64,000 nucleotides of DNA from Chromohalobacter marismortui (GTDB taxonomy: Bacteria > Pseudomonadota > Gammaproteobacteria > Pseudomonadales > Halomonadaceae). The stretch covers positions 124,001 to 188,000 of the forward strand of contig NZ_SOBR01000002.1 in the NCBI RefSeq assembly GCF_004364315.1, in the 5' to 3' direction. Below, piece after piece: positions 6,837 through 36,095 of the stretch. Below the pieces are notes generated by a model. That model made no database searches. It worked only from the letters and a program-made list of their open reading frames with translations, and was not told the origin of the DNA. The position numbers and the translations under genes were made by a program. The stretch's first letter is position 1. Each line of letters starts with the position of its first letter.

Positions 6837-7943
6837 TCAAAACTCGATGGCGACATGGCTCCTGGGCGTGCTGCAGCAGCTCAGAATGTAGCCGTCCGCT
6901 TCGTCGTCCTCGGTGATGCCGCCGTTGTGCTCCATGTTGACGTCACCCGAGAGCTTCTTGACCTTGCAGGTGCCGCAGATGCCCATGCCGCAGGCCTTGG
7001 GGATGTGCAGGCCCAGCTTGGCAGCAGCGGCATGCACGGTCTCCTCGGGCATGATGCGAATACTCTTGCCGCTGTTGCTGAACTCGACCTGCAGCATGTC
7101 GGCGGTATCGACGGCCTCCAGCTCCGCCTCGGCTTGCTCGGCAAGCTCCTCCACATCCGCTCGGACATCGGCGGGCGTGGCTCCGAACGATTCCTCGTGG
7201 TAGTGGCTCATGTCGAAGCCGTTGCTCTTCAGCACCTGCTTGACCGCCTTCATGTACGGCGTGGGTCCGCAGCAGAAGATTTCACGCTCCAGGTAATCCG
7301 GCACCATCAACTCGAGCATCGCCTGCGCCAGATAGCCGCGGAATCCCGCCCAGGCCTCGCCGCTTTCGTCACCGCGTTCGCAGACGATATGCAACCGGAA
7401 GTCGGGAATCCGCGAGAAGATGTGCTCGAGCTCGCGATGGAAAATGATATCGCGCGGCGTCCGCGCGCTGTGCACGAACTGCAGATCGACGTTGGCGTTG
7501 GTGTCGAAGAACCAGCGCGTCATCGACATCAACGGCGTGACGCCGACCCCGCCGGAGAGCATGAGCACCTTGTCGGCGGGGTAATCGATGACGTTGAAGT
7601 CCCCCACCGGACCGTGAACGACAAGCTCGCTGCCGACCTGCAGGTTGTCATGCAGCCAGTTGGAAACGCGCCCATCGGGAAGCCGCTTGACTGTGATAGA
7701 GAAGCTATAGGGCACCGAGGGCGAACTGGAAATCGTGTAGGAGCGCATGATCGGCTCGCCATCGATCTCCAGCTCCAGCGTCACGAATTGTCCGGGCTTG
7801 AAGAAGAACAATACTGGCTGATCGGCCATGAAGCAGAAGGTGCGAACGTCCCAGGTTTCCTGGATGATCTTCACGCAACGCACGTTATGGCGCCCATTGG
7901 TCCAGGTCTGGGTAGTGACGGGATTGAAGAAGTTCAAGGTCAT
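6837..7943 (-). CDS. gbcB: Glycine betaine demethylase reductase subunit
   Basis: 368-residue hybrid reductase that passes electrons from NAD(P)H to the Rieske oxygenase GbcA. The N-terminal ferredoxin-reductase domain has the FAD motif RSYTISSSP (about 67-75), then the nucleotide-binding GGVGVTPLMSM and CGPTPYM. The C-terminal plant-type [2Fe-2S] domain has CGMGICGTC and a distal SCC near residue 358. Domain order and adjacency to gbcA identify it as GbcB. It is divergent from gbcA across a 286-base intergenic region, which suggests shared control by the GbdR regulator encoded at 34962-36095. That regulation is known in Pseudomonas and inferred here. Confidence 0.92.
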   Translation of the reverse strand: MTLNFFNPVTTQTWTNGRHNVRCVKIIQETWDVRTFCFMADQPVLFFFKPGQFVTLELEIDGEPIMRSYTISSSPSVPYSFSITVKRLPDGRVSNWLHDNLQVGSELVVHGPVGDFNVIDYPADKVLMLSGGVGVTPLMSMTRWFFDTNANVDLQFVHSARTPRDIIFHRELEHIFSRIPDFRLHIVCERGDESGEAWAGFRGYLAQAMLELMVPDYLEREIFCCGPTPYMKAVKQVLKSNGFDMSHYHEESFGATPADVRADVEELAEQAEAELEAVDTADMLQVEFSNSGKSIRIMPEETVHAAAAKLGLHIPKACGMGICGTCKVKKLSGDVNMEHNGGITEDDEADGYILSCCSTPRSHVAIEF

Positions 7944-8229: not shown

Positions 8230-9516
8230 ATGGATCTGATCGCCACATCCGTACTCGACGATCCCTTGGCCGCCGCGCGTGACGCGACCGCCGACATGCT
8301 TCGCCAGCGTCGGCGCACGTATTCGCTGCCGCAACCCTTCTATAATGATCCGCGCGTGTTCGCGCTGGATATGCAGGAAATCTTTTCCCACGAGTGGCTG
8401 TTCGTCGGCATGACCTGCGAACTCCCCGCCAAGGGCAATTACCTGACCGCGCAGATCGGCGACAACCCCATCATCGTGGTGCGCGGCGACCAGGGCACAC
8501 TGCATGCCTTCCACAACGTCTGCCGACATCGCGGGTCGCGGCTGTGCACGCAGGAGAAAGGCAAGGTCGCCAAGCTGGTCTGTCCCTATCATCAATGGAC
8601 CTACGAACTCGATGGCCGCTTGCTGTTCGCCGGGCAGGACATGGGCGAGGATTTCGACCTTTCCGCGCATGGCCTCAAGCCGGTAGCGGTGAAGAGTGCC
8701 GGCGGTTTCATCTTCATCAGTCTCGCCGAACAGCCACCGGCCATCGACGACTTCCTGGCGACACTCGATGAGTACCTGGCGCCCTACGAGATGGATAACG
8801 TCAAGGTCGCGGCAGAATCGAACATCGTCGAGCAGGCCAACTGGAAGCTGGTCCTCGAGAACAACCGCGAGTGTTATCACTGCAACGGCGCGCATCCGGA
8901 GCTGCTCAACTCGCTGATCGAGTTCGACGACACCGACGACCCCCGCGCCACGCCCGCCTATCGCGACCTGGTCGCTCGCCAGCAGGCCCACTGGGAACGC
9001 CTACAGGTGCCCTGGGCGCTCAAGCACTTCGGCAAGCGCAACCGTCTGACTCGCACGCCGATGATCGACGGCGTCATGTCGATGACCATGGACGGCAAGC
9101 CCGGCTGCAGGAAACTGATGGGAAGCCTCACGAGCCCCGATCTGGGCTCGCTGCGCATTCTGCACCTGCCCAATTCCTGGAACCATTTCATGGGCGATCA
9201 TGCCGTGGTCTTCCGTGTCCTGCCACTGGGCCCGCAACAGACCCTGGTAACCACCAAGTGGCTCGTCCGCCGGGACGCCCAGGAAGGCGTCGATTACGAT
9301 CCGCAATGGCTCCGCAAGGTCTGGGATGCCACCAACGATCAGGATCGGCAACTGGCCGAGGAGAACCAGCGCGGCATCAACTCCATCGCCTACCAGCCCG
9401 GTCCCTACTCCGAGACCTACGAATTCGGCGTGATCGACTTCGTCGACTGGTACAGCGAGACGATGCTCTCGTATCTGGAATCGGAGACGCCTTCGCTGCA
9501 GGTCGTGCAAGGCTGA
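8230..9516 (+). CDS. gbcA: Glycine betaine demethylase Rieske oxygenase subunit
   Basis: 428 residues from the ATG at 8230, chosen because of the GAAGAGG site upstream and the match to the family N-terminus; the frame stays open further upstream. It oxidatively demethylates glycine betaine to dimethylglycine, releasing formaldehyde. The Rieske [2Fe-2S] ligands are visible as C98-R-H100 and C118-P-Y-H121. The mononuclear iron site is marked by YHCNGAH, with H217 and H222. It pairs with gbcB, transcribed divergently. A palindromic hairpin follows the stop. Confidence 0.93.
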   Translation: MDLIATSVLDDPLAAARDATADMLRQRRRTYSLPQPFYNDPRVFALDMQEIFSHEWLFVGMTCELPAKGNYLTAQIGDNPIIVVRGDQGTLHAFHNVCRHRGSRLCTQEKGKVAKLVCPYHQWTYELDGRLLFAGQDMGEDFDLSAHGLKPVAVKSAGGFIFISLAEQPPAIDDFLATLDEYLAPYEMDNVKVAAESNIVEQANWKLVLENNRECYHCNGAHPELLNSLIEFDDTDDPRATPAYRDLVARQQAHWERLQVPWALKHFGKRNRLTRTPMIDGVMSMTMDGKPGCRKLMGSLTSPDLGSLRILHLPNSWNHFMGDHAVVFRVLPLGPQQTLVTTKWLVRRDAQEGVDYDPQWLRKVWDATNDQDRQLAEENQRGINSIAYQPGPYSETYEFGVIDFVDWYSETMLSYLESETPSLQVVQG

Positions 9517-26786: not shown

Positions 26787-27590
26787 TCACTGCAAGACGT
26801 TCTCCTCGCGCAATAACGTCAGAATCGCTTCGGCGCCCTGGGTCGGGGTCACATCCGTGAGCACCTGCCCGCCACCACCGTCGGACTTGGCGGCGGCGGC
26901 CTTGAAGCGGTCCCGCGCAGACGTCGCCTTGACGATCTTGAGGCGCTTGGGGCGTGGACGTGCGGGTTGAACCTGCCATTTGGCCCATTCTTCGTCATTG
27001 CTCACCGGCCCCATCGAGGCCTCTAACGTGCCGCGTCGCGCCGGGCCATAGGCGCTCTGGCGCGGCGCCGGGGCCGCGTCATCGACGGTAACGATGGCCG
27101 GCAGGCGGACGCTGAGTCGCCGCCGCTGCCCCCGCGGCAGGGCTTGCAGCAAGGTCGCCACGCCGTTCTCGACGCTTTCCACCGCCGCCAGGCTACTCAC
27201 CAGCGGCCAGCCAAGACGCTCGGCAAGCAGATAGGGCAACAGGCCCGATCCCTCGCCCCGCTCGGCACGCTCTCCGGTGATCACCAGATGTGGCGATGTC
27301 GCATCCAGCGCTTCCGCCAGCGCGGGCAACACATCGGCACCCTCGGGTTGCTCGAGCAACGCCAGTTCGGAGAATCCCATGCCCAGATAGCCACGCAATG
27401 CCGCGTCGCTGCTTTCGTTGCGTTCACCGGCATGCAGCAAGCGAACCTCGGCATTCGCCAAGGAACGTGCCAGTTCCACGCCTCGAGCATCCTGATCGGC
27501 ACGCCGTACCCGGCCGGTCAGCGGATGACGCCCGACGGAGACCAGCACCGTCACATCGAGTCCTGGCGTCATGGCAGATTCAGGCTGCAT
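26787..27590 (-). CDS. etfB: Electron transfer flavoprotein beta subunit, Dgc-associated
   Basis: 267 residues. It begins with the ETF-beta-type strand VTVLVSVGRHPLTGRVRR and continues with the region around DATSPHLVITGERAERGEGSGLLPYLLAERLGWP and LPRGQRRRLSVRLPAIVTV. It diverges strongly from housekeeping ETF and ends in a basic tail. It overlaps etfA by 11 bases. With etfA it probably accepts electrons from DgcA/DgcB or passes them to the quinone pool. RBS GGGAGGAG. Confidence 0.85.
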   Translation of the reverse strand: MQPESAMTPGLDVTVLVSVGRHPLTGRVRRADQDARGVELARSLANAEVRLLHAGERNESSDAALRGYLGMGFSELALLEQPEGADVLPALAEALDATSPHLVITGERAERGEGSGLLPYLLAERLGWPLVSSLAAVESVENGVATLLQALPRGQRRRLSVRLPAIVTVDDAAPAPRQSAYGPARRGTLEASMGPVSNDEEWAKWQVQPARPRPKRLKIVKATSARDRFKAAAAKSDGGGGQVLTDVTPTQGAEAILTLLREENVLQ

Positions 27591-28848
27591 CGCGTTTCTC
27601 CTCCCGCGCTTGCGTCACCAAGGTGACCAGCGCTTCAAGTATCTGGGTCGAATCCCCGATCACCGCGAGATCCGCACGCTTGATCATGTCGCAACCAGGA
27701 TCCATGTTGATCGCCACCACCTTGTCGCAGGTCTGGATCCCCTGCAGGTGCTGGATGGCGCCACTAATGCCCACGGCCACATAGACCCGCGCCGTGACCC
27801 AGGTGCCGGTGGCGCCCACCTGACGATCGCGGGCCATGAAGCCATCATCCACCGCCACGCGGGACGCGCCTTCGGTGGCGCCCAGGAGCTCGGCAGCATG
27901 GTGAAAGCCTTGCCAATCCTTGACGCCATTACCGGCAGAGAGAATGAATTCGGCCTCGGACAAGGCGACGCTGGCGGGATCGACACTCACCTGCCCCAGA
28001 TCCTGAATACGCGACAAGGTCGACGGCAACGGCTGAGGCAAGGCCAGTTCGGCGGCAGTGTGGCGCGTTTCGCTGACCGGCTCGGCACATTCGGCCAAGG
28101 CCAGGGCGATGCGCGGCAGGGGGCGCCGAATATCCAGCGACCCGGCCGCGCCCCGTGCCGTGCACTGCCAGCCGGTCGCCGCCTCGGCATCTGCTTCGAG
28201 CTGCCAGATGCCCGTCGCCGGCCGCTCGTCGAGACGCGCGGCCAGGCGCCTTCCCAGTTCGCCGCCGCCCAACTTGGAATCCGGCAACAGCCAATGGCGT
28301 GGCGCCCAGGCCTGCTCTGCCATGACCAGCGCTCCCAGGCGCGCCTCGGGGGCATAGCCTGTGACTTCCGGCGAATCGAGATGCAGCAGGCGGTCGATGC
28401 CCGCCTCACCGAAGCGGGTCTCCTTGTGGGGACCGAAAATCACGGCCACCACCGCCCCTTGTGCCGCAGGGTCGGCATCGGCGAGCCGGCGGGCCAGGCC
28501 GAGCAGGTCCTTGTCATGCCCGCTCAGGCGACCGCCGGCCATATCCGGCACCACCGCCACCAGGAAAGCCGGCTCGGCGATCTCGATCAAGGGCTTGCGA
28601 TCGGCGACGGGCGTCGACGCTTTGCCGCCCATCGCCCCCTGCTGCGTACCGCTGCGGTCGATACGCTTCACACCGTGAGGACCGATGAACCCCACTCGAT
28701 GCGGATTCTTGCGCACCAGGCCATTGGGCCCCGGCCATTCGCTGGCCGCCCCCTGTCCCAGCGCGACGAGCACCTCCTCGTGGCGAGGATGAAGGCGATT
28801 GCGGGCGATCCATTCCAGGCGCGGATCGCGACGCGGTAAGTCGCTCAT
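27580..28848 (-). CDS. etfA: Electron transfer flavoprotein alpha subunit, Dgc-associated
   Basis: 422 residues, about 100 longer than housekeeping EtfA because of an N-terminal extension (SDLPRRDPRLEWIARNRL...) typical of ETF-alpha proteins in dimethylglycine loci. The C-terminal FAD domain has FILSAGNGVKDW, then VGATGTWVTARVYVAVGISG and INMDPGCDMIKRADLAVIGD. It overlaps the dgcB stop by 4 bases (ATGA), with strong SD GAGGAGG. Acts in the cytoplasm with EtfB. Confidence 0.88.
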   Translation of the reverse strand: MSDLPRRDPRLEWIARNRLHPRHEEVLVALGQGAASEWPGPNGLVRKNPHRVGFIGPHGVKRIDRSGTQQGAMGGKASTPVADRKPLIEIAEPAFLVAVVPDMAGGRLSGHDKDLLGLARRLADADPAAQGAVVAVIFGPHKETRFGEAGIDRLLHLDSPEVTGYAPEARLGALVMAEQAWAPRHWLLPDSKLGGGELGRRLAARLDERPATGIWQLEADAEAATGWQCTARGAAGSLDIRRPLPRIALALAECAEPVSETRHTAAELALPQPLPSTLSRIQDLGQVSVDPASVALSEAEFILSAGNGVKDWQGFHHAAELLGATEGASRVAVDDGFMARDRQVGATGTWVTARVYVAVGISGAIQHLQGIQTCDKVVAINMDPGCDMIKRADLAVIGDSTQILEALVTLVTQAREEKRDAA

Positions 28849-30896
28849 GACAGTACCTCCTCGGCAGCCTGCGGGGTCGAGGCATCACGCGGCACGGGTG
28901 TCGCCGCCGGCGTGGTATCCAGCGCGGCGGCGACCATCTCGGCGATGTCCTTGACCGCGACCTCTTCGTCATTCGCTGACGGGACGACGCCTTCGAGCAT
29001 GGCGGTGCATTGCGGGCAGCCCACGACCACCTGCTCGGCCTGGGTCTCGCGCACGTCGCCCATGCGCATGTCAGGGATGCGTTGCTTGCCGGGGACGTCG
29101 GTGATCGGTGCACCGCCGCCACCGCCGCAGCAACGCGAGCGGTAGCCCGAACGCTGCATCTCGACCAGCTCGACGCCCAGCGCTTGCAGTACCGCACGGG
29201 GTGCCTCGTATTCACCGTTGTAGCGGCCCAGGTAGCACGGATCATGGTAGGTCACGCGCGCCCTTTGCCCCGGCGCCAATCGCAGCCGGCCGGACTCGAT
29301 CAACTGATGGATGAACGTGCTGTGATGCCAGACCGGGTAATCGGCTTCCTGCCCAGGCGGATAGAAGGCACCGTATTCGTTCTTGAGCACGTGGAAGCTG
29401 TGCGGATCGCAGGTGACGATACACTCGAAGCGATACCGCGACAGCGTGGCGATATTGCGCCGTGCCAGCGACTGAAAGGTGGCTTCGTCTCCCAGCCGAC
29501 GAGCCACATCGCCGCTGTCGCGCTCTTCATTGCCGAGCACCGCGAAGTCGACGCCGGCAGCACGCAGCACCTTGATCAAGGCTCGCAGCGTGCGCTGATT
29601 GCGCATGTCGAAGACGCCATCGCCCAGCCACAGCAACACCTCGGCGCGTTCCACATCGGCCATCAGCGGTAGTTCGAGATCCGCCGCCCAGTTGAGGCGT
29701 CCCCCGGGATCGAAACCGCCCGGGTTGTCGGTGGCGATCAGGTTGTCGATGACCTCGGCGCCCTTGCCGGGCGTCGCGCCTTCTTCCAGGGTCAGGTGGC
29801 GGCGCATGTCGACGATGGCATCGACATGCTCGATCATCATCGGGCATTCCTCGACGCAGGCACGACAGGTGGTGCACGACCACAGCGTTTCGGCGTCGAC
29901 CAGCGCCTTGCCATCTTTTGTCGCAGCCGGCGCGACGATGGGGCCATGCGGTGAGCCTTGGTGCTCGCCGACCGGCTGTTCTCCACGCTCGGGGGAGGGA
30001 TAGGGAGAGCCAGCGTAATGGGCGTCACTGCCGCCGGCCATGCCGACCACCATGTCCTGGATCAGTTTCTTGGGATTGAGCGGCTGTCCCGCCGCGAAGG
30101 CCGGACAGACCGCTTCACAACGGCCGCACTGCACGCAGGCGTCGAAGCCCAGCAACTGGTTCCAGGTGAAATCGGCGGGTGTCTCGACGCCGAGCGGGGC
30201 CTGATCATCCTCGAGATCGAGGGCCTTGAGCCCGGTCGAGCGGCCTTCGCCCCCCCGCTTGTCCGAAAAGCGCTCGGGACGACGATGGAAGGCCAGGTGC
30301 AGGGCGCCGGCAAAGGCGTGCTTCATCGGCCCGCCCCATGTCATGCCGAACACCAGCTCGGCCAGCCCCCAGGCCACCACGGCGGCCAGCACCAGCGCGA
30401 CCAGCCAGCCGCCGGCGTCGGCGGGCAGCACGCCCACCGCCGGCAGGGTCACCACGAAGATGCCCAGCGAGAACGCCATCAGACTCTTGGGCAAACGCAT
30501 CCAGGGCCCCTTCGACAGGCGCGCCGGCGGATTCCGCCGACGCCGGGCGACGAACAGGCTGCCCGCGAACATCGTCGCGCTCGCTGCCAGCAGCAACCAG
30601 CCCAGGACACCGCTAACCCAGCCAGAGCCGAGGCCCAGGCCATGGACGACGATCGCCAGCGCCATGGCGGCGACAAAGCCGCCGGCGGTGGCGACGTGGG
30701 TGTTGGCGATCACCTTGTCGCGCGCCACCACGTGGTGCAGGTCGACCAGATAACGGCGCGGCATCGCTGCCAGACCGCGGAGCACGGGCACCGGCGACGG
30801 CCGCCCCTGCCCCCACAGACGAATGCGCCGCACGGCGCCGACCGCCGCCAGCGCCAGGGCGGAAAAGATCAGGATCGGCAGGAGGGTATCGAGCAT
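28845..30896 (-). CDS. dgcB: Dimethylglycine catabolism Fe-S membrane protein DgcB
   Basis: 683 residues. Four to six N-terminal hydrophobic segments (within residues 1-185) precede two ferredoxin motifs, C254-x2-C-x2-C-x3-C (CVQCGRCEAVCP) and C341-x2-C-x2-C-x3-C (CTTCRACVEECP). The C-terminus has two CCG-type domains with HDPCYLGRYNG, RCCGGGGG and GCPQCTAML. The layout matches heterodisulfide-reductase-like electron carriers, and the position next to dgcA identifies DgcB. Between the two ferredoxin motifs lies a Pro/Gly/His-rich stretch (about 296-320, YPSPERGEQPVGEHQGSPHG) that looks like an inserted low-complexity segment. RBS GAGGTGAG. Confidence 0.92.
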   Translation of the reverse strand: MLDTLLPILIFSALALAAVGAVRRIRLWGQGRPSPVPVLRGLAAMPRRYLVDLHHVVARDKVIANTHVATAGGFVAAMALAIVVHGLGLGSGWVSGVLGWLLLAASATMFAGSLFVARRRRNPPARLSKGPWMRLPKSLMAFSLGIFVVTLPAVGVLPADAGGWLVALVLAAVVAWGLAELVFGMTWGGPMKHAFAGALHLAFHRRPERFSDKRGGEGRSTGLKALDLEDDQAPLGVETPADFTWNQLLGFDACVQCGRCEAVCPAFAAGQPLNPKKLIQDMVVGMAGGSDAHYAGSPYPSPERGEQPVGEHQGSPHGPIVAPAATKDGKALVDAETLWSCTTCRACVEECPMMIEHVDAIVDMRRHLTLEEGATPGKGAEVIDNLIATDNPGGFDPGGRLNWAADLELPLMADVERAEVLLWLGDGVFDMRNQRTLRALIKVLRAAGVDFAVLGNEERDSGDVARRLGDEATFQSLARRNIATLSRYRFECIVTCDPHSFHVLKNEYGAFYPPGQEADYPVWHHSTFIHQLIESGRLRLAPGQRARVTYHDPCYLGRYNGEYEAPRAVLQALGVELVEMQRSGYRSRCCGGGGGAPITDVPGKQRIPDMRMGDVRETQAEQVVVGCPQCTAMLEGVVPSANDEEVAVKDIAEMVAAALDTTPAATPVPRDASTPQAAEEVLS

Positions 30897-31005: not shown

Positions 31006-33090
31006 TTAAAAGTCCTTGCAGATCCGCAGGGCATCATAGATCGCCGCATGCGTATTGCGCGGCGCCGTGCAATCGCCCAGTCGGAACAGCACGAAGCCGG
31101 CATCGGCATCGTCGTCCAGCGTCGCCAGCGCGGGCTGGGGCTGGATGGCATAGAGCGCTTCGATATCGACCTGCCCCTTGTTGCGCGACTGATCCTTGAG
31201 GGCGTAATAGAGCGCCTCGTCGGGTCGCACGCCATTTTCGACCACCACCTGGTCGACCACCCGCTCTTCCTGGGCGCCGGTGTACTCGTTCTCGAGTACC
31301 GCGACCAGGGCATCGCCCTCGCGATAGACCCTGTGCAGCGCCAGGTCGGAGGTCATGATCACCTCCTTCTCGTAGAGACTGCGGTAATAGGTCGGGAAGG
31401 TGGTGCCACCAACCGCCGCGCCGGGCTTGATGTCGTCGGTGACGATCTCGACCTGGGCGCCCTTGTCGGCCAGGTAATCCGCCGCCGAAACGCCGGCGAA
31501 CTCGCAGATGGAGTCGAAGATCAGTACGTTCTTGCCGGGCTCGACGGCCCCGCTGAGAATGTCCCAGGTGCTGACGACCAGGCTCCGTTCGCGGTCCTCG
31601 GCATAGCCCCATTCGGGCACCTGCGACAGGAAGGGCTGGCCGCCGGTGGCGAGCACCACGATGTCCGGCCGCAGATCGGCGATGGTCGCGTCGTCGGCAC
31701 GGGTGCCCAGGCGCAGGTCGACCTTGAGCCGTGTCAGTTCGAGCTGGTACCAGCGGGTGATGCCGGCGATCTGGTCGCGCTGAGGGGCCTTGGCGGCGAG
31801 CGTGATCTGACCGCCGATCTGGTCCGCGGCCTCGAACAGCGTGACCTCGTGGCCGCGCTCGGCGGCGACGCGCGCCGCCTCCATGCCGCCCGGACCACCA
31901 CCGACCACCACCACCCTGCGCTTCGGCCCGTCGCTGGGGGCGATCTCGTGGGGCAGGCCCAGGTACTCGCGCGAAGTGGCGGCGTTCTGGATGCACAGCA
32001 CGTCGAGCCCCTGGTATTGACGATCGATGCAGTAGTTGGCACCGACGCACTGCCGAATCCGGTCGGTCTGATCCATCTGGATCTTGGCGATCAGATGCGG
32101 GTCGGCGATGTGTGCCCGGGTCATGCCGACCAGATCGACGTAGCCGCCCTCGAGAATACGACTGGCCTGGTTGGGATCCTTGATGTTCTGGGCATGGATC
32201 ACCGGCACGCTGACCACGTCCTTGACGCCCGCCGCCAGGTGCAGGAACGGCTCCGGCGGGTAGGACATGTTGGGAATCACGTTGGCCAGGGTGTTGTGCG
32301 TGTCGCATCCCGAGCCGACCACGCCGAAGAAATCGACCATGCCGGTGGCATCGTAGTAGGTGGCGATCCGTTTCATGTCGTCGTGGGTCAGACCGTCGGG
32401 ATGGAACTCGTCGCCGCAGATGCGCAGGCCGACCACGAAGTCGTCGCCGACTTCGGCGCGTACCGCCTTGAGGACTTCCAGACCGAAGCGCATGCGATTC
32501 TCGAAGCTGCCGCCCCACTGGTCCTCGCGCTTGTTGACACGCGGACTCCAGAACTGGTCGATCAGGTGCTGGTGCACGGCCGACAACTCGATGCCGTCGA
32601 GGCCGCCCTCCTTGACGCGACGTGCCCCCTGGGCGAAATCGTCGATGACGCGCCAGATTTCTTCTTCCTCGATGGTCTTGCAGGTCGAGCGGTGTACCGG
32701 CTCGCGAATGCCCGACGGCGATAGCAGCGTCGGCCAGTCGAAGCCATCCCAGCGCGACCGGCGGCCCATATGGGTGATCTGGATCATGATCTTGCCGCCA
32801 TGCTTGTGCACGGCGTCCGCCAGATTCTGGAAGTGCGGAATGATCCGGTCGGTGGAGACGTTCACCGAACTCCACCAGGCCTGGGGGCTGTCGATCGATA
32901 CCGGCGAGGAGCCACCGCAGATGCACAATCCACAACCGCCCTTGGCCTTCTCCTCGTAGTACTTGACATAACGTTCGGTGGTCATGCCGCCATCGGTCGC
33001 GTGGACCTCGGCATGGGCAGTGCTGACCACGCGGTTGCGTATGGTGAGATTGCCGATCTCGATCGGCTTGAACAACGCATCGAATGCCAT
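31006..33090 (-). CDS. dgcA: Dimethylglycine demethylase subunit DgcA (OYE-type flavoprotein)
   Basis: 694 residues related to trimethylamine dehydrogenase and 2,4-dienoyl-CoA reductase. An FMN TIM barrel (about 1-370, starting LFKPIEIGNLTIRNRVV) is followed by a dinucleotide-binding half with VVVVGGGPGGMEAARVAAERG (near 392). It demethylates dimethylglycine to sarcosine. The Fe-S region reads C348-x2-A351-x2-C354-x11-C366: the second Cys of the usual CxxCxxC-x11-C set is Ala. It is the third gene of the operon, after the dipeptidase-like and DUF5943 genes, with RBS GAGGTTT. Confidence 0.93.
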   Translation of the reverse strand: MAFDALFKPIEIGNLTIRNRVVSTAHAEVHATDGGMTTERYVKYYEEKAKGGCGLCICGGSSPVSIDSPQAWWSSVNVSTDRIIPHFQNLADAVHKHGGKIMIQITHMGRRSRWDGFDWPTLLSPSGIREPVHRSTCKTIEEEEIWRVIDDFAQGARRVKEGGLDGIELSAVHQHLIDQFWSPRVNKREDQWGGSFENRMRFGLEVLKAVRAEVGDDFVVGLRICGDEFHPDGLTHDDMKRIATYYDATGMVDFFGVVGSGCDTHNTLANVIPNMSYPPEPFLHLAAGVKDVVSVPVIHAQNIKDPNQASRILEGGYVDLVGMTRAHIADPHLIAKIQMDQTDRIRQCVGANYCIDRQYQGLDVLCIQNAATSREYLGLPHEIAPSDGPKRRVVVVGGGPGGMEAARVAAERGHEVTLFEAADQIGGQITLAAKAPQRDQIAGITRWYQLELTRLKVDLRLGTRADDATIADLRPDIVVLATGGQPFLSQVPEWGYAEDRERSLVVSTWDILSGAVEPGKNVLIFDSICEFAGVSAADYLADKGAQVEIVTDDIKPGAAVGGTTFPTYYRSLYEKEVIMTSDLALHRVYREGDALVAVLENEYTGAQEERVVDQVVVENGVRPDEALYYALKDQSRNKGQVDIEALYAIQPQPALATLDDDADAGFVLFRLGDCTAPRNTHAAIYDALRICKDF

Positions 33091-33100
33091 CTCGGAAACC

Positions 33101-33646
33101 TCAACCTGCCAGGGTATGACGGGGAACGACCGTGAAGCGGCCGACGTCGCAGCCTTCCTCGGCGGCGCTCTGGGTCTGCTCGGCGATGGTGCGCAGGTCG
33201 CTGTCCCGGGCCTCGAGAATCAGATCCATGGCACCGGCGAACCAGCCGGTGAACATGTACTCGACCTTGCGCCCGACCTTGCCGAGCTGATAGACGAAGG
33301 CGCTGTGCTCGAGACGTACCTGGGCGGTGCCCGCATCGAGGTCGATGTCTTCGGTGATGAACAGCCCCCAGCCGCGCTGGGAGAGCCGTGTCATGTAGTG
33401 TTCGAACACCGCCTCGCCCTCCAGGCCGTGCAGCTCGGCCTCTTTCTCGCACCAGTGCCAGGCGCTCTTGTAGCCGGCGTGATAGAGGATATCCGCGTAG
33501 GTCTCCACGCCCAGCGCCTCTTCCACCGCGACGTGGTTGTTGATGAAGAAGTGGCGAGGCACGTAGAGCATCGGCAGGGCATCGGTGGTCCACACGCCGG
33601 TTTCTCTATCCACCTCGATGGGCAGTTCGGGGGCCATCTTGGTCAC
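33101..33646 (-). CDS. DUF5943-type protein of the dimethylglycine operon
   Basis: 181 residues, probably starting at the GTG at 33646 (GAGGAA seven bases upstream) rather than the ATG at 33637, which has no ribosome site. No signal peptide or membrane segment. Visible features are YVPRHFFINNHVAVEEALG, a Trp/Cys/Glu cluster AWHWCEKEAELHG (about 62-74), and TGWFAGAMDLILEARDSDL, followed by a Cys near the C-terminus. A homologue sits beside dgcA in Pseudomonas aeruginosa. Function is unknown; the fold may be V4R-like. It lies 10 bases before dgcA, so a direct role in demethylase assembly or C1 handling is plausible but unproven. Confidence 0.82.
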   Translation of the reverse strand: MTKMAPELPIEVDRETGVWTTDALPMLYVPRHFFINNHVAVEEALGVETYADILYHAGYKSAWHWCEKEAELHGLEGEAVFEHYMTRLSQRGWGLFITEDIDLDAGTAQVRLEHSAFVYQLGKVGRKVEYMFTGWFAGAMDLILEARDSDLRTIAEQTQSAAEEGCDVGRFTVVPRHTLAG

Positions 33647-33673
33647 GGTCGTATTCCTCGAATTGTCGTTATG

Positions 33674-33732
33674 CAGAAGGAAGGGATAAGAGGTAAGGGA
33701 AGCTTCTTCCTTCTTTCCTCTTCTTTCTTCTG
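33674..33732. repeat. Purine/pyrimidine inverted repeat between the dipeptidase-like and DUF5943 genes
   Basis: A purine-rich arm starting CAGAAGGAAGG (from 33674) faces a pyrimidine-rich arm ending CTTTCTTCTG (to 33732), meeting near AAGCTT at about 33700-33705. It occupies nearly the whole 93-base gap within the operon and would form a long imperfect hairpin in mRNA. Confidence 0.65.
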
Positions 33733-33739
33733 TCTCGCG

Positions 33740-34717
33740 TTAGCTTCCCCAGACGTCGCGTAGCAAGCGCACCCAGTTCTCGCCCATGATCTTGCGCACC
33801 TGACGCTCGCTCATGCCGCGTCGCAAGAGCGCCTCGGTAAGATTGCCGAACTCGCCGATGGTGCGGATGCCCTCGGGATTGATGATGGTCCCGAAGTTGG
33901 TCAGTCGCCGAGCGTAGCCCTTGTCGTGGGTGAGCCATTCGAAGAAGGCCTGGTCCTGGCCCTGGGTGAAGTCGGTACCGATACCGATGGCGTCCTCGCC
34001 GACGATGTTCATCACGTATTCGATCGCCTCGACGTAGTCGTCGACGGTGGCGTCGACCCCGGCACGCAGGAAGGGCGTGAACATGGTCACGCCGACGAAA
34101 CCGCCATGCTCGGCGATGAACCGGAGTTCCGCATCGGACTTGTTGCGCGGGTGTTCCTTGAGACCGGATGGCAGGCAATGGGAATAGCAGACCGGTTTCT
34201 CGGAGGCCTCGATGACCTCGCGGGACGTGGTCTCGCCAACGTGGGACAGGTCACACATCATGCCCACGCGGTTCATCTCGGCGACGATCTCGCGACCGAA
34301 ACCGGAGAGCCCGCCGTCGCGTTCGTAGCAGCCGGTGCCCACCAGGTTCTGGGTGTTGTAGCACATCTGTACGATGCCTACGCCGAGCTTCTTGAAGACT
34401 TCGACGTAGCCGATCTGATCCTCGAAGGCGTGGGCGTTCTGGAAACCGTAGATGATGCCGGTCTTGCCTTCTTCCTTGGCGCGGGTGATATCGGCGGTGG
34501 TATGCACGGGCCGCACCAGGTCGTCGCACGCCGCGAGGAGTGCGTTGGTCTGAACGATATTGTCGACGGTGGCCTGAAACCCTTCCCATACCGAGACGGT
34601 ACAATTGGCGGCGGTCAAGCCACCCCGACGCATGTCTTCGAGTAGGTCACGGTTCCACTTGGCGATAATCAGGCCATCGATGACGATGGCGTCGTCGTGC
34701 AGTGCTTGCGCGGTCAT
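33740..34717 (-). CDS. Membrane-dipeptidase-like amidohydrolase of the dgc operon
   Basis: 325 residues of the renal dipeptidase (peptidase M19) family, without a signal peptide, so cytoplasmic. Metal-site candidates are the late Glu/His/Asp positions, in LSHVGETTSREV (about 157-168), CYSHCLPSG (His near 179) and IGIGTDFTQG. The usual N-terminal HxD of M19 enzymes is replaced: IVIDGLIIAKWNRDL has no His at that place. It is the first gene of the operon leading to dgcAB. In Pseudomonas the equivalent gene is also linked to dgcA. The substrate is unknown, and a classical dipeptidase activity should not be assumed. Confidence 0.82.
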   Translation of the reverse strand: MTAQALHDDAIVIDGLIIAKWNRDLLEDMRRGGLTAANCTVSVWEGFQATVDNIVQTNALLAACDDLVRPVHTTADITRAKEEGKTGIIYGFQNAHAFEDQIGYVEVFKKLGVGIVQMCYNTQNLVGTGCYERDGGLSGFGREIVAEMNRVGMMCDLSHVGETTSREVIEASEKPVCYSHCLPSGLKEHPRNKSDAELRFIAEHGGFVGVTMFTPFLRAGVDATVDDYVEAIEYVMNIVGEDAIGIGTDFTQGQDQAFFEWLTHDKGYARRLTNFGTIINPEGIRTIGEFGNLTEALLRRGMSERQVRKIMGENWVRLLRDVWGS

Positions 34718-34781
34718 GAGTCTCGCTCCCGGAATGGCGTCATGTCGGCCAGCTTAGCCCCGTCCTCGAGACCGCCGACGC

Positions 34782-34848
34782 TTGGAAGCGACGAGGAAAA
34801 TTCCAAATGCGTCACGCCTTGGAATCGGCCTTTGAGCTCATTTCCAAA
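34782..34848. promoter_or_regulatory. Cluster of four TTCCAA half-sites upstream of the dgc operon
   Basis: In the 244-base gap between gbdR and the dipeptidase-like gene, the hexamer appears as TTGGAA (34782-34787), TTCCAA (34801-34806), TTGGAA (34819-34824) and TTCCAA (34842-34847), alternating in orientation with spacings of 19, 18 and 23 bases. It lies 65-130 bases upstream of the first start codon of the operon. A regulator site, GbdR or another protein, is inferred. Confidence 0.5.
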
Positions 34849-34961: not shown

Positions 34962-36095
34962 CTATCGCAAATGCACGCTCGCATAGGTGGGTTCGCCTTG
35001 CGCCTGGGCCAGGGCCTGCATGGCACTGGAGGTGCGTGGCGCGACATAAGCGTCGTCTTCACTGCCCGCGGGCTGCGTGGCGGGCGTCAGTGCCACGCTG
35101 GCGCTCGCCAGACGCATCTGGCGTTCGTCGCGCGGCGGCGTGCCGAAGTATTCCCGATAGCACTTGGAAAAATGCGGTGTGGAAACGAACCCGCACACCG
35201 AGGCGATTTCGATGATCGACATCGACGTCTGGCGCAGCAACTGTCGAGCCCGGGTCAGTCGCAGCTTGAGGTAATAGCGCGACGGCGAGCAACTCAAGTA
35301 TTTCTGGAATAGGCGCTCGAGTTGGCGACGCGAGACGTTCACGTAGTTCGCCAGCTCGTCGAGGGCAATGGGCTCCTCCAGATTGGCCTCCATCAGCGCC
35401 ACGATTTCGAGCAACTTGGGCTGGCTAGTTCCCAGCACGTGTCGCAACGGCACGCGCTGCTGATCTTGTTCGCCACGCATACGGTCGCAAATGAACATGT
35501 CGGAGATCGCCGCCGATAACTCACGGCCGTGATCACGGGCGATCAACGTCAGCATCATGTCCATCGGCGCCGTCCCACCGGAGGCCGTGGCGCGATCGCG
35601 GTCGATCGAAAACAATCGCGTCGTCAAGGTAGCGCGCGGATAGGCTTCCTGCGCAGCGGCCTGGAATTCCCAGTGAATGCTGCATTCGTAGCCATCCAGC
35701 AGCCCCGCCTTGGCCAGCGCCCAACTGCCGGTACACAGCGCGCCAATGCGCCGCGACTGGCGCGCCTGAGCCTGCAGCCACAGCACGTGTTCACGCGTGA
35801 CATGACGCTGGATACCGACACCGCCACACACGAACACCATGTCGAGCGCCAACGGCTCATGCATGCCGTTATCCGGCGTGATCAGCAAGCCATCGCTGGC
35901 CCGCACGGCCTCGCCATCGGTACTCAGCGTGGTCCATTGGTAGAGTTCACGCCCCGCCAACTGGTTAGCCATGCGCAACGGCTCCACCGCCGAGGCCAAC
36001 GAGATCAGCGTGAAATTATCCATCAACAAGAAGCCCAGACGCATGGGCGTCTTGGGGACGTCCGGCGTCGCGGGGCGATCGCTCGAGCGGGTCAT
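34962..36095 (-). CDS. gbdR: GbdR, AraC/GlxA-type activator of betaine catabolism
   Basis: 377 residues: an N-terminal DJ-1/PfpI-like sensing domain (LGFLLMDNFTLISLASAVEPLR, then FVCGGVGIQRHV and IGALCTGSWALAKAGLL with the elbow Cys), followed by a C-terminal AraC helix-turn-helix domain (VNVSRRQLERLFQKYLSCSPS and IIEIASVCGFVSTPHFSKCYREYFG). In Pseudomonas GbdR responds to glycine betaine and dimethylglycine and activates gbc, dgc and sox genes. Here it is beside the dgc operon on the same strand but separated by a hairpin and a promoter-sized gap. SD GGAGGAGAA is strong. Confidence 0.92.
   Translation of the reverse strand: MTRSSDRPATPDVPKTPMRLGFLLMDNFTLISLASAVEPLRMANQLAGRELYQWTTLSTDGEAVRASDGLLITPDNGMHEPLALDMVFVCGGVGIQRHVTREHVLWLQAQARQSRRIGALCTGSWALAKAGLLDGYECSIHWEFQAAAQEAYPRATLTTRLFSIDRDRATASGGTAPMDMMLTLIARDHGRELSAAISDMFICDRMRGEQDQQRVPLRHVLGTSQPKLLEIVALMEANLEEPIALDELANYVNVSRRQLERLFQKYLSCSPSRYYLKLRLTRARQLLRQTSMSIIEIASVCGFVSTPHFSKCYREYFGTPPRDERQMRLASASVALTPATQPAGSEDDAYVAPRTSSAMQALAQAQGEPTYASVHLR

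Follow-up and report, generated by a model that had tools for sequence, protein, structure and literature searches.

A conserved M19-like/DUF5943 protein pair at the head of the dgcAB-etfAB genes of Chromohalobacter marismortui: a candidate catabolic module with an altered M19 site

Introduction

This report concerns two adjacent genes, encoding an M19-like protein and a DUF5943 protein, in a 64,000-nucleotide stretch of the Chromohalobacter marismortui genome (contig NZ_SOBR01000002.1, positions 124,001 to 188,000), which is the window throughout. As stated in a preliminary description made from the letters alone, these two open reading frames head the dgcAB-etfAB operon, with dgcA, dgcB, etfA and etfB downstream on the same strand (Table 1). 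Our reading, to which we give a rough probability of 0.45, is that the pair represents a two-protein catabolic module rather than an assembly factor, made of an M19 enzyme with a rebuilt site and a V4R partner. The M19-like protein would be an enzyme with a TIM barrel, from a separate M19 subfamily in which the binuclear metal site has been rebuilt, DUF5943 would be a stand-alone V4R-fold partner that binds a small molecule, and the module, placed at the head of dgcAB-etfAB, would most likely have as its substrate a betaine-route amine with a carboxylate group, or its adduct or intermediate.

Linkage of these genes with dgcA in Pseudomonas and Vibrio, and their co-induction in Pseudomonas, have already been published. 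In the accessible part of a study on rhizosphere Pseudomonas (PMC8079746), a table lists a 'membrane dipeptidase, dgc operon' at 1.9-3.8 and a 'hypothetical protein, dgcAB operon' at 2.3-3.4 (six values each), close to dgcA at 2.0-3.3, and in PMC10963909 the members of the RoxR regulon include a dipeptidase, PP_0308, along with dgcAB and gbcA. In the excerpt of PMC12093977, two genes precede dgcAB-fixAB in Vibrio natriegens (pepD-hp-dgcAB-fixAB) and occupy the same place in Pseudomonas aeruginosa; a figure legend of that paper has the betaine pathway drawn without them. Unlike here, PMC12093977 and PMC8079746, in their accessible parts, label the pair merely as a dipeptidase plus a hypothetical protein, and discuss no site, fold or other settings. 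Our literature search, for which subscription journals were largely beyond reach, returned nothing in print on the altered site, on a V4R fold or on settings other than dgcA, and only descriptive mentions for PA5396/PA5397, DUF5943, PP_0308/PP_0309 or a dipeptidase with betaine genes.

A fixed alteration of the M19 site

The M19-like protein belongs to sequence family M19 (PF01244, E = 2.8e-90, 303 bits against a gathering threshold of 26, profile positions 11-318 of 319). Its closest structural match, obtained with our own model (predicted local distance difference test, pLDDT, of 77), is 2i5g, a P. aeruginosa crystal structure released in 2006 (Z 44.2, root-mean-square deviation, rmsd, of 1.8 over 315 residues, 76% identity). 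This 'amidohydrolase', which is probably PA5396, the gene in this position, has the same length and the same changed residues in the alignment, with no essential difference seen; no paper naming 2I5G was found in our literature search. The barrel is also that of M19/renal dipeptidase (1itq and 3id7; Z 34-35.5, rmsd 2.1-2.4 over 292-297 residues), and alignment to Streptomyces 3id7 shows that His159, His180, Arg191 and Asp249 are retained, in canonical terms the second-metal His pair, the substrate Arg and the catalytic Asp. Unlike renal dipeptidase, the protein has Leu16, Gln93 and Tyr120 in place of the first-metal His, the bridging Glu and the catalytic His (H152 in the human enzyme), so that, among the features of an active M19 dipeptidase, the N-terminal His-x-Asp, the bridging Glu and the catalytic His are all missing; in addition, it has invariant Asn94, Gln117 and Lys193.

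The 3id7 alignment stops short of the N-terminal motif, and Leu16 was placed in the His column by alignment to two distant relatives, L164 and L165, which carry His there and Glu where the window has Gln93; both are without the Asp of His-x-Asp and are therefore partial controls. Ile18 presumably stands in the place of this Asp, as judged from the usual spacing of the motif only. The missing His-x-Asp reported in the preliminary description thus holds for its His part, with Leu16 in 113 of 113 copies, and depends on that spacing for its Asp part, while the loss of the bridging Glu (Gln93) and of the catalytic His (Tyr120) had been overlooked.

Eight residues (L16, F92, Q93, Y120, H159, H180, R191 and D249) are unchanged in those 113 aligned copies, a set of at least 70% identity that counts the window's own copy and, twice over, at least five genomes. 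Over 24 members down to 34% identity, hand-chosen to comprise the window, 19 plasmid loci and four sequences of a sister clade (L136, L164 and L165, with no Leu16 or with Glu present, were omitted), 30 positions never vary, including D14, L16, Q93, N94, Q117, Y120, H159, H180, R191, K193 and D249. The plasmid-borne relatives (38-66% identity) and the sister clade (34-40%) have the same site change. The changes are fixed and do not represent decay, being constant in all close copies aligned and common to a wider M19 subfamily. No second M19 protein was found in the source genome at E 1e-20, and a scan of six genomes gave no clean canonical M19 as an internal control, all eight M19 genes being of the changed type; the most distant relatives are of mixed site type.

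The sister clade (L126-L135 and L137-L139) has operons of its own, with genes for an aldehyde dehydrogenase, a BCCT transporter and/or a 580-residue protein without Pfam match; these are often divergent from a LysR regulator and, in some cases, near RidA or DUF3726 genes. For homarine or another named pathway, NCBIfam gave the aldehyde dehydrogenase no name over cut-off and the literature search nothing usable.

A predicted V4R fold for the DUF5943 protein

The second protein matches PF19367 (E = 4.5e-47, 159 bits against a gathering threshold of 27), a domain of 96 residues at the N-terminus. Its AlphaFold model (pLDDT 83.6) resembles the domains with which MopR, PoxR and DmpR sense phenols (Z 17-18 and rmsd 2.3-3.8 over 148-159 residues; Foldseek E from 1.1e-7) and, at Z 11.4-12.5, the V4R protein MJ1460. 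We assign the modelled protein to the V4R fold because of (i) these structural matches, (ii) sub-threshold matches to Pfam V4R (PF02830) in two of the three homologues scanned (E = 3e-6 and 1.5e-5), both from Paracoccus, 40-41% identical and annotated '4-vinyl reductase', the third, from Methylobacterium, giving none, and (iii) a Cys...Glu-x2-Cys...Cys motif shared by XylR and all five alpha- and betaproteobacterial plasmid homologues read (both Paracoccus, Methylobacterium, Sphaerotilus and Paraburkholderia). The spacing of this motif is that of MopR. The label 'DUF5943-type' in the preliminary description agrees with the PF19367 match and was incomplete, since the V4R fold went unnoticed.

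The window protein itself gave no PF02830 match up to E 10, a profile search of the PDB with it returned nothing and hhalign against XylR was insignificant. The Cys-Glu-Cys-Cys motif is missing from the remaining 125 of 130 DUF5943 loci (which include repeats of the same genome), betaproteobacterial Azoarcus/Aromatoleum copies among them, and from all 110 copies in L001-L030 and L046-L125, the window's included; the window copy lacks this mark of a zinc-type V4R sensor. DUF5943 further differs from MopR, PoxR and DmpR in that it stands alone, with no fusion to a sigma-54 activator.

Partner fidelity and linkage with dgcA

In the 293 genomes of the order that were searched, DUF5943 occurs in 44, an M19 protein of at least 74% identity in 43 (the 44th is cut by a contig end) and a DgcA of at least 79% in 42, all within the same 44 genomes; no M19 or DgcA at these thresholds is listed for the 249 DUF5943-negative genomes. 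The DgcA lies within 1 kb on the same strand in 42 of the 44, a linkage far beyond chance, and DUF5943 has an M19 neighbour in every one of them (in one genome it is cut off by a contig end, and in another it lies 2.4 kb away). In the best 80 of 591 confirmed DUF5943 loci, which lean to close relatives, 77 have M19, DUF5943 and dgcA in order and the other three stop at contig ends; taken singly, the M19 neighbour is present at 78 loci and a downstream dgcA at 79, the exceptions again being at contig ends. Synteny of the pair with dgcA extends over gamma- and betaproteobacteria, with same-strand linkage conserved across genera. On plasmids, all 14 records with DUF5943 have an adjoining M19 gene, 11 of these also carry a DgcA of at least 60% identity, and each of the 11 plasmid records with such a DgcA carries the pair.

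The linkage in Pseudomonas given in the preliminary description was recovered by comparison with 15 Pseudomonas loci, and it agrees with the placement in P. aeruginosa in the excerpt of PMC12093977. Identity between the window and these loci is 80-81% for M19, 76-77% for DUF5943 and 70-74% for DgcB, both proteins of the pair being more conserved than DgcB. The proposal of a conserved role in betaine-type catabolism is supported by the synteny in two proteobacterial classes, by co-induction in Pseudomonas and by the published placement in Vibrio and P. aeruginosa.

In G318 (L042:9250-11550), the only genome of the order with a gap above 600 bp within the pair, M19 and DUF5943 are split by approximately 2.4 kb holding a LysR-like open reading frame and others, and DUF5943 stays by dgcA.

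The pair without dgcA, and dgcA without the pair

On three of the 14 DUF5943 plasmids, the pair is not accompanied by a DgcA reaching 60% on the record, weaker paralogues being possible. In one genus (G478 and G498), the pair lies away from dgcA, by a Rieske oxygenase and gbcB. The order in G478 is a divergent Rieske oxygenase, M19 and DUF5943, then a GbdR-like regulator and gbcB (gaps of 16 and 3 bp; this gbcB shares 67% identity with the window's), and no DgcA was found at 1e-30 in this fragmented assembly; in G498, DUF5943, regulator and gbcB follow a truncated M19 gene, and dgcA (60-61%) is on another contig. In Methylobacterium radiotolerans, M19-DUF5943 stands alone, its neighbours being an N-methyl amino-acid oxidase and an ABC transporter of branched-chain type, and two Paracoccus plasmids have the order MFS transporter-V4R-M19; in both cases the 9 kb around the pair hold no annotated gbcA or dgcA. 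M19 relatives without DUF5943 were seen by soxBDAG, by a BKACE set (which resembles carnitine breakdown), by ABC, MFS or TRAP transporters and by flavin adenine dinucleotide (FAD) oxidoreductases. Five neighbouring flavoproteins were scanned, of which two are of the DAO type (one by an M19-V4R pair, on the opposite strand) and three resemble FAD/nicotinamide adenine dinucleotide (NAD) monooxygenases. These settings come from 21 fetched M19 neighbourhoods (one unannotated, two with dgcA), which were picked to show other settings and not at random, and the gene tables of the plasmids have gaps. Within the soxBDAG cluster of Azospirillum, M19 is followed, at the position that DUF5943 takes elsewhere, by a protein of 151 residues (L171:10017-10472) that matches no Pfam family.

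The converse also occurs. In a class sample of 274 genomes, G085, G209 and G121 have dgcAB-etf clusters with DgcA at 61-63% identity (interrupted by one stop in the G209 reading) but neither DUF5943 nor a close M19, and DgcA is found without the pair on three Azospirillum plasmids. The constant unit is thus the M19-DUF5943 pair, dgcA being its usual host and not a requirement, and the pair looks like a module of its own because related copies adjoin other catabolic and transport genes.

Possible functions

A catabolic activity is favoured because the polar pocket is fixed and the settings are linked to transporters and flavoenzymes, and the substrates would most simply be small carboxylated amines or their adducts. 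While the genes, the residue changes, the folds, the linkage, the partner fidelity and the occurrence of the pair away from a close dgcA are observed, its being an enzyme, its kind of substrate and its chemistry are inferred. The rebuilt site has lost the first-metal His and the bridging Glu, with two His, a carboxylate-binding Arg and the catalytic Asp kept beside Gln93-Asn94, Gln117, Tyr120 and Lys193; Arg191 would bind a carboxylate, Asp249, His159 and His180 would serve acid-base or single-metal chemistry, and there might be either one metal, on His159/His180/Gln93, or none.

This has implications for annotation, since the protein called 'dipeptidase' in nearly all annotated records read, misleadingly so, belongs to a subfamily with a fixed rebuilt site, which is found in three classes of proteobacteria in the company of catabolic genes, those for betaine and sarcosine among them. 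Assigning functions to the two proteins would complete the picture of how Pseudomonas and halophiles use betaine, and would place DUF5943 in the V4R superfamily.

Several points weigh against such a catabolic module. M19 relatives are often without DUF5943 (in five of the 19 plasmid records with an M19 of at least 60% identity), neighbours such as EutBC, M81 and polyamine-type ABC genes have no evident tie to N-methyl amines, and only two of the five scanned flavoproteins are of the amine-oxidase (DAO) type, so diverse a collection that a single shared substrate class is a guess. On the plasmid record of Azospirillum B510, a GbcA-like-GbcB-like-DgcAB-Etf cluster (GbcA-like match of 454 bits, under cut-off) has no pair, which would be either dispensable in this strain or located elsewhere. 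Finally, the ligands of V4R domains are believed to be hydrophobic (PMC2253512), which betaine is not.

A far more specific chemistry, for which we see very little chance, is that the subfamily represents a metal-free or one-metal amidohydrolase-fold lyase that takes the carbinolamines (N-hydroxymethyl adducts and their like) produced by N-demethylases and other enzymes of amine oxidation and splits them into amine and aldehyde, the V4R partner binding the substrate or the released aldehyde equivalents. Because such a substrate already has its hydroxyl, no metal-bound water would be needed, which would explain why the first metal and bridging carboxylate are lost and the carboxylate-binding Arg and acid-base Asp/His stay fixed. 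If true, a single lyase activity might be of use in several amine routes, such as those of betaine, sarcosine and carnitine-type compounds.

The distribution of GbcA bears on a different and rather doubtful proposal, in which the pair would be an accessory of the GbcAB step, aiding the oxidation of betaine to dimethylglycine or handling its product. Among 279 genomes of the order, 39 have a GbcA above the curated cut-off, and every one of these is DUF5943-positive; the five other DUF5943 genomes are G343 with a split GbcA, G498 with 450 bits, G478 with a partial match, and G560 and G562, which are not listed and probably fell outside this smaller draw. In agreement with this proposal, G085, G209 and G121 have no GbcA over 27 bits, the pair is ordered with regulator and gbcB in G478 and G498, and in L041 gbcA shares the strand of M19 and is 0.6 kb upstream of it. 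However, the oxygenase adjoining the pair in G478 is only 26% identical to the window GbcA, GbcA-like genes below cut-off (246-531 bits) are present in 14 DUF5943-negative genomes of the same sample, Azospirillum B510 has GbcA-like and GbcB-like genes without the pair on record, and the Methylobacterium and Paracoccus pairs have no annotated gbcA nearby, informative lineages being few.

Tight linkage is what one would expect if the pair were instead an assembly or maturation factor of DgcAB, a role raised in the preliminary description: DgcA is within 1 kb in 42 of 44 genomes, dgcA is downstream at 79 of 80 loci and every plasmid with DgcA of at least 60% holds the pair. This role is nevertheless quite unlikely, because the pair is the constant unit and does not require dgcA, as seen on three of 14 plasmids, in G478 and G498, in the dgcAB-etf clusters without the pair (G085, G209, G121 and Azospirillum B510, with DgcA unaccompanied on three Azospirillum plasmids) and in the stretches without annotated dgcA where M19 relatives occur. 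An M19 protein turned into an inactive scaffold or sensor, with DUF5943 as a ligand-dependent regulator of the pathway, would fit the lost metal ligands, the fold shared with phenol-sensing domains and the adjacent GbdR-like regulator, but polar site residues that are invariant across 24 diverse members in many settings would be unusual for a scaffold, and the transporter-linked settings look catabolic, which makes it improbable. We hold about as little of an ordinary M19 hydrolase with one metal on His159/His180/Gln93 and a peptide-like or acylated substrate, which partly overlaps the catabolic module preferred here. One-metal amidohydrolases such as Escherichia coli NagA are known, and all 24 members compared retain both His of the second metal, the substrate Arg and the catalytic Asp; yet the same 24 have Gln for the bridging carboxylate and Tyr for the catalytic His, and no dipeptide-handling gene recurs among the neighbours read.

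Gene layout and minor observations

The genes of the locus are listed in Table 1. The wider window is a betaine island, with genes for gbcA, sarcosine oxidase alpha-type, formate-dehydrogenase-type and alcohol-dehydrogenase-type proteins, serine dehydratase and a BCCT transporter.

Table 1. Features of the pair, the downstream operon and related betaine genes in the window
Feature	Coordinates	Strand	Remarks
M19-like protein gene	33740..34717	(-)	325 aa; PF01244
DUF5943 protein gene	33101..33646	(-)	181 aa; GTG start; PF19367
Predicted RNA stem-loop in the 93-bp M19/DUF5943 gap	33674..33732	(-)	Minimum free energy -25 kcal/mol, z -2.31
dgcA, dimethylglycine demethylase flavoprotein, old yellow enzyme/trimethylamine dehydrogenase type	31006..33090	(-)	Name from homology and context
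dgcB, DUF3483 + Fe-S + CCG domains	28845..30896	(-)	
etfA	27580..28848	(-)	
etfB	26787..27590	(-)	
GbdR-like AraC/DJ-1 regulator	34962..36095	(-)	Directly upstream of the M19 gene; GbdR name from context
gbcA, glycine betaine monooxygenase oxygenase subunit	8230..9516	(+)	NF058607, 832 bits, cut-off 670
gbcB, reductase	6837..7943	(-)	Adjoins gbcA; 67% identical to L036 reductase

DUF5943 and dgcA are 10 bp apart. The start of gbcA, 24 kb off in the same island, is approximate, its frame being open from 7828, and a second scan gave 833 bits at 8230-9486. The L036 reductase is read by Pfam as FAD/NAD/2Fe-2S. In the halomonad G343 (G343:C1:4419832-4421084, L035), gbcA is in two frames by a second DgcA-like gene of 43% identity; Paracoccus plasmid genes of similar identity are named HpbA, N-methyl-L-proline demethylase.

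The Fe-S motif of DgcA, in the window and in the DgcA-like sequences displayed with it, is C-V-G-A-N-Y-C (in a few, C-V-G-A-N-N-C or C-V-G-A-G-Y-C), with Ala instead of one of the four Cys that hold the cluster in trimethylamine dehydrogenase. That the pair might compensate for this loss was considered and rejected: the Ala occurs in every distinct sequence displayed, and it does not track the pair because it is present in the pair-less L031-L033 and in the 43% paralogues.

As for possible control elements, two TTGGAA-n-CG-like elements, noticed by eye only at 34770-34840 upstream of the M19 gene, could be half-sites of the regulator, and the predicted stem-loop between the two genes of the pair was equalled or bettered by five of 200 shuffles.

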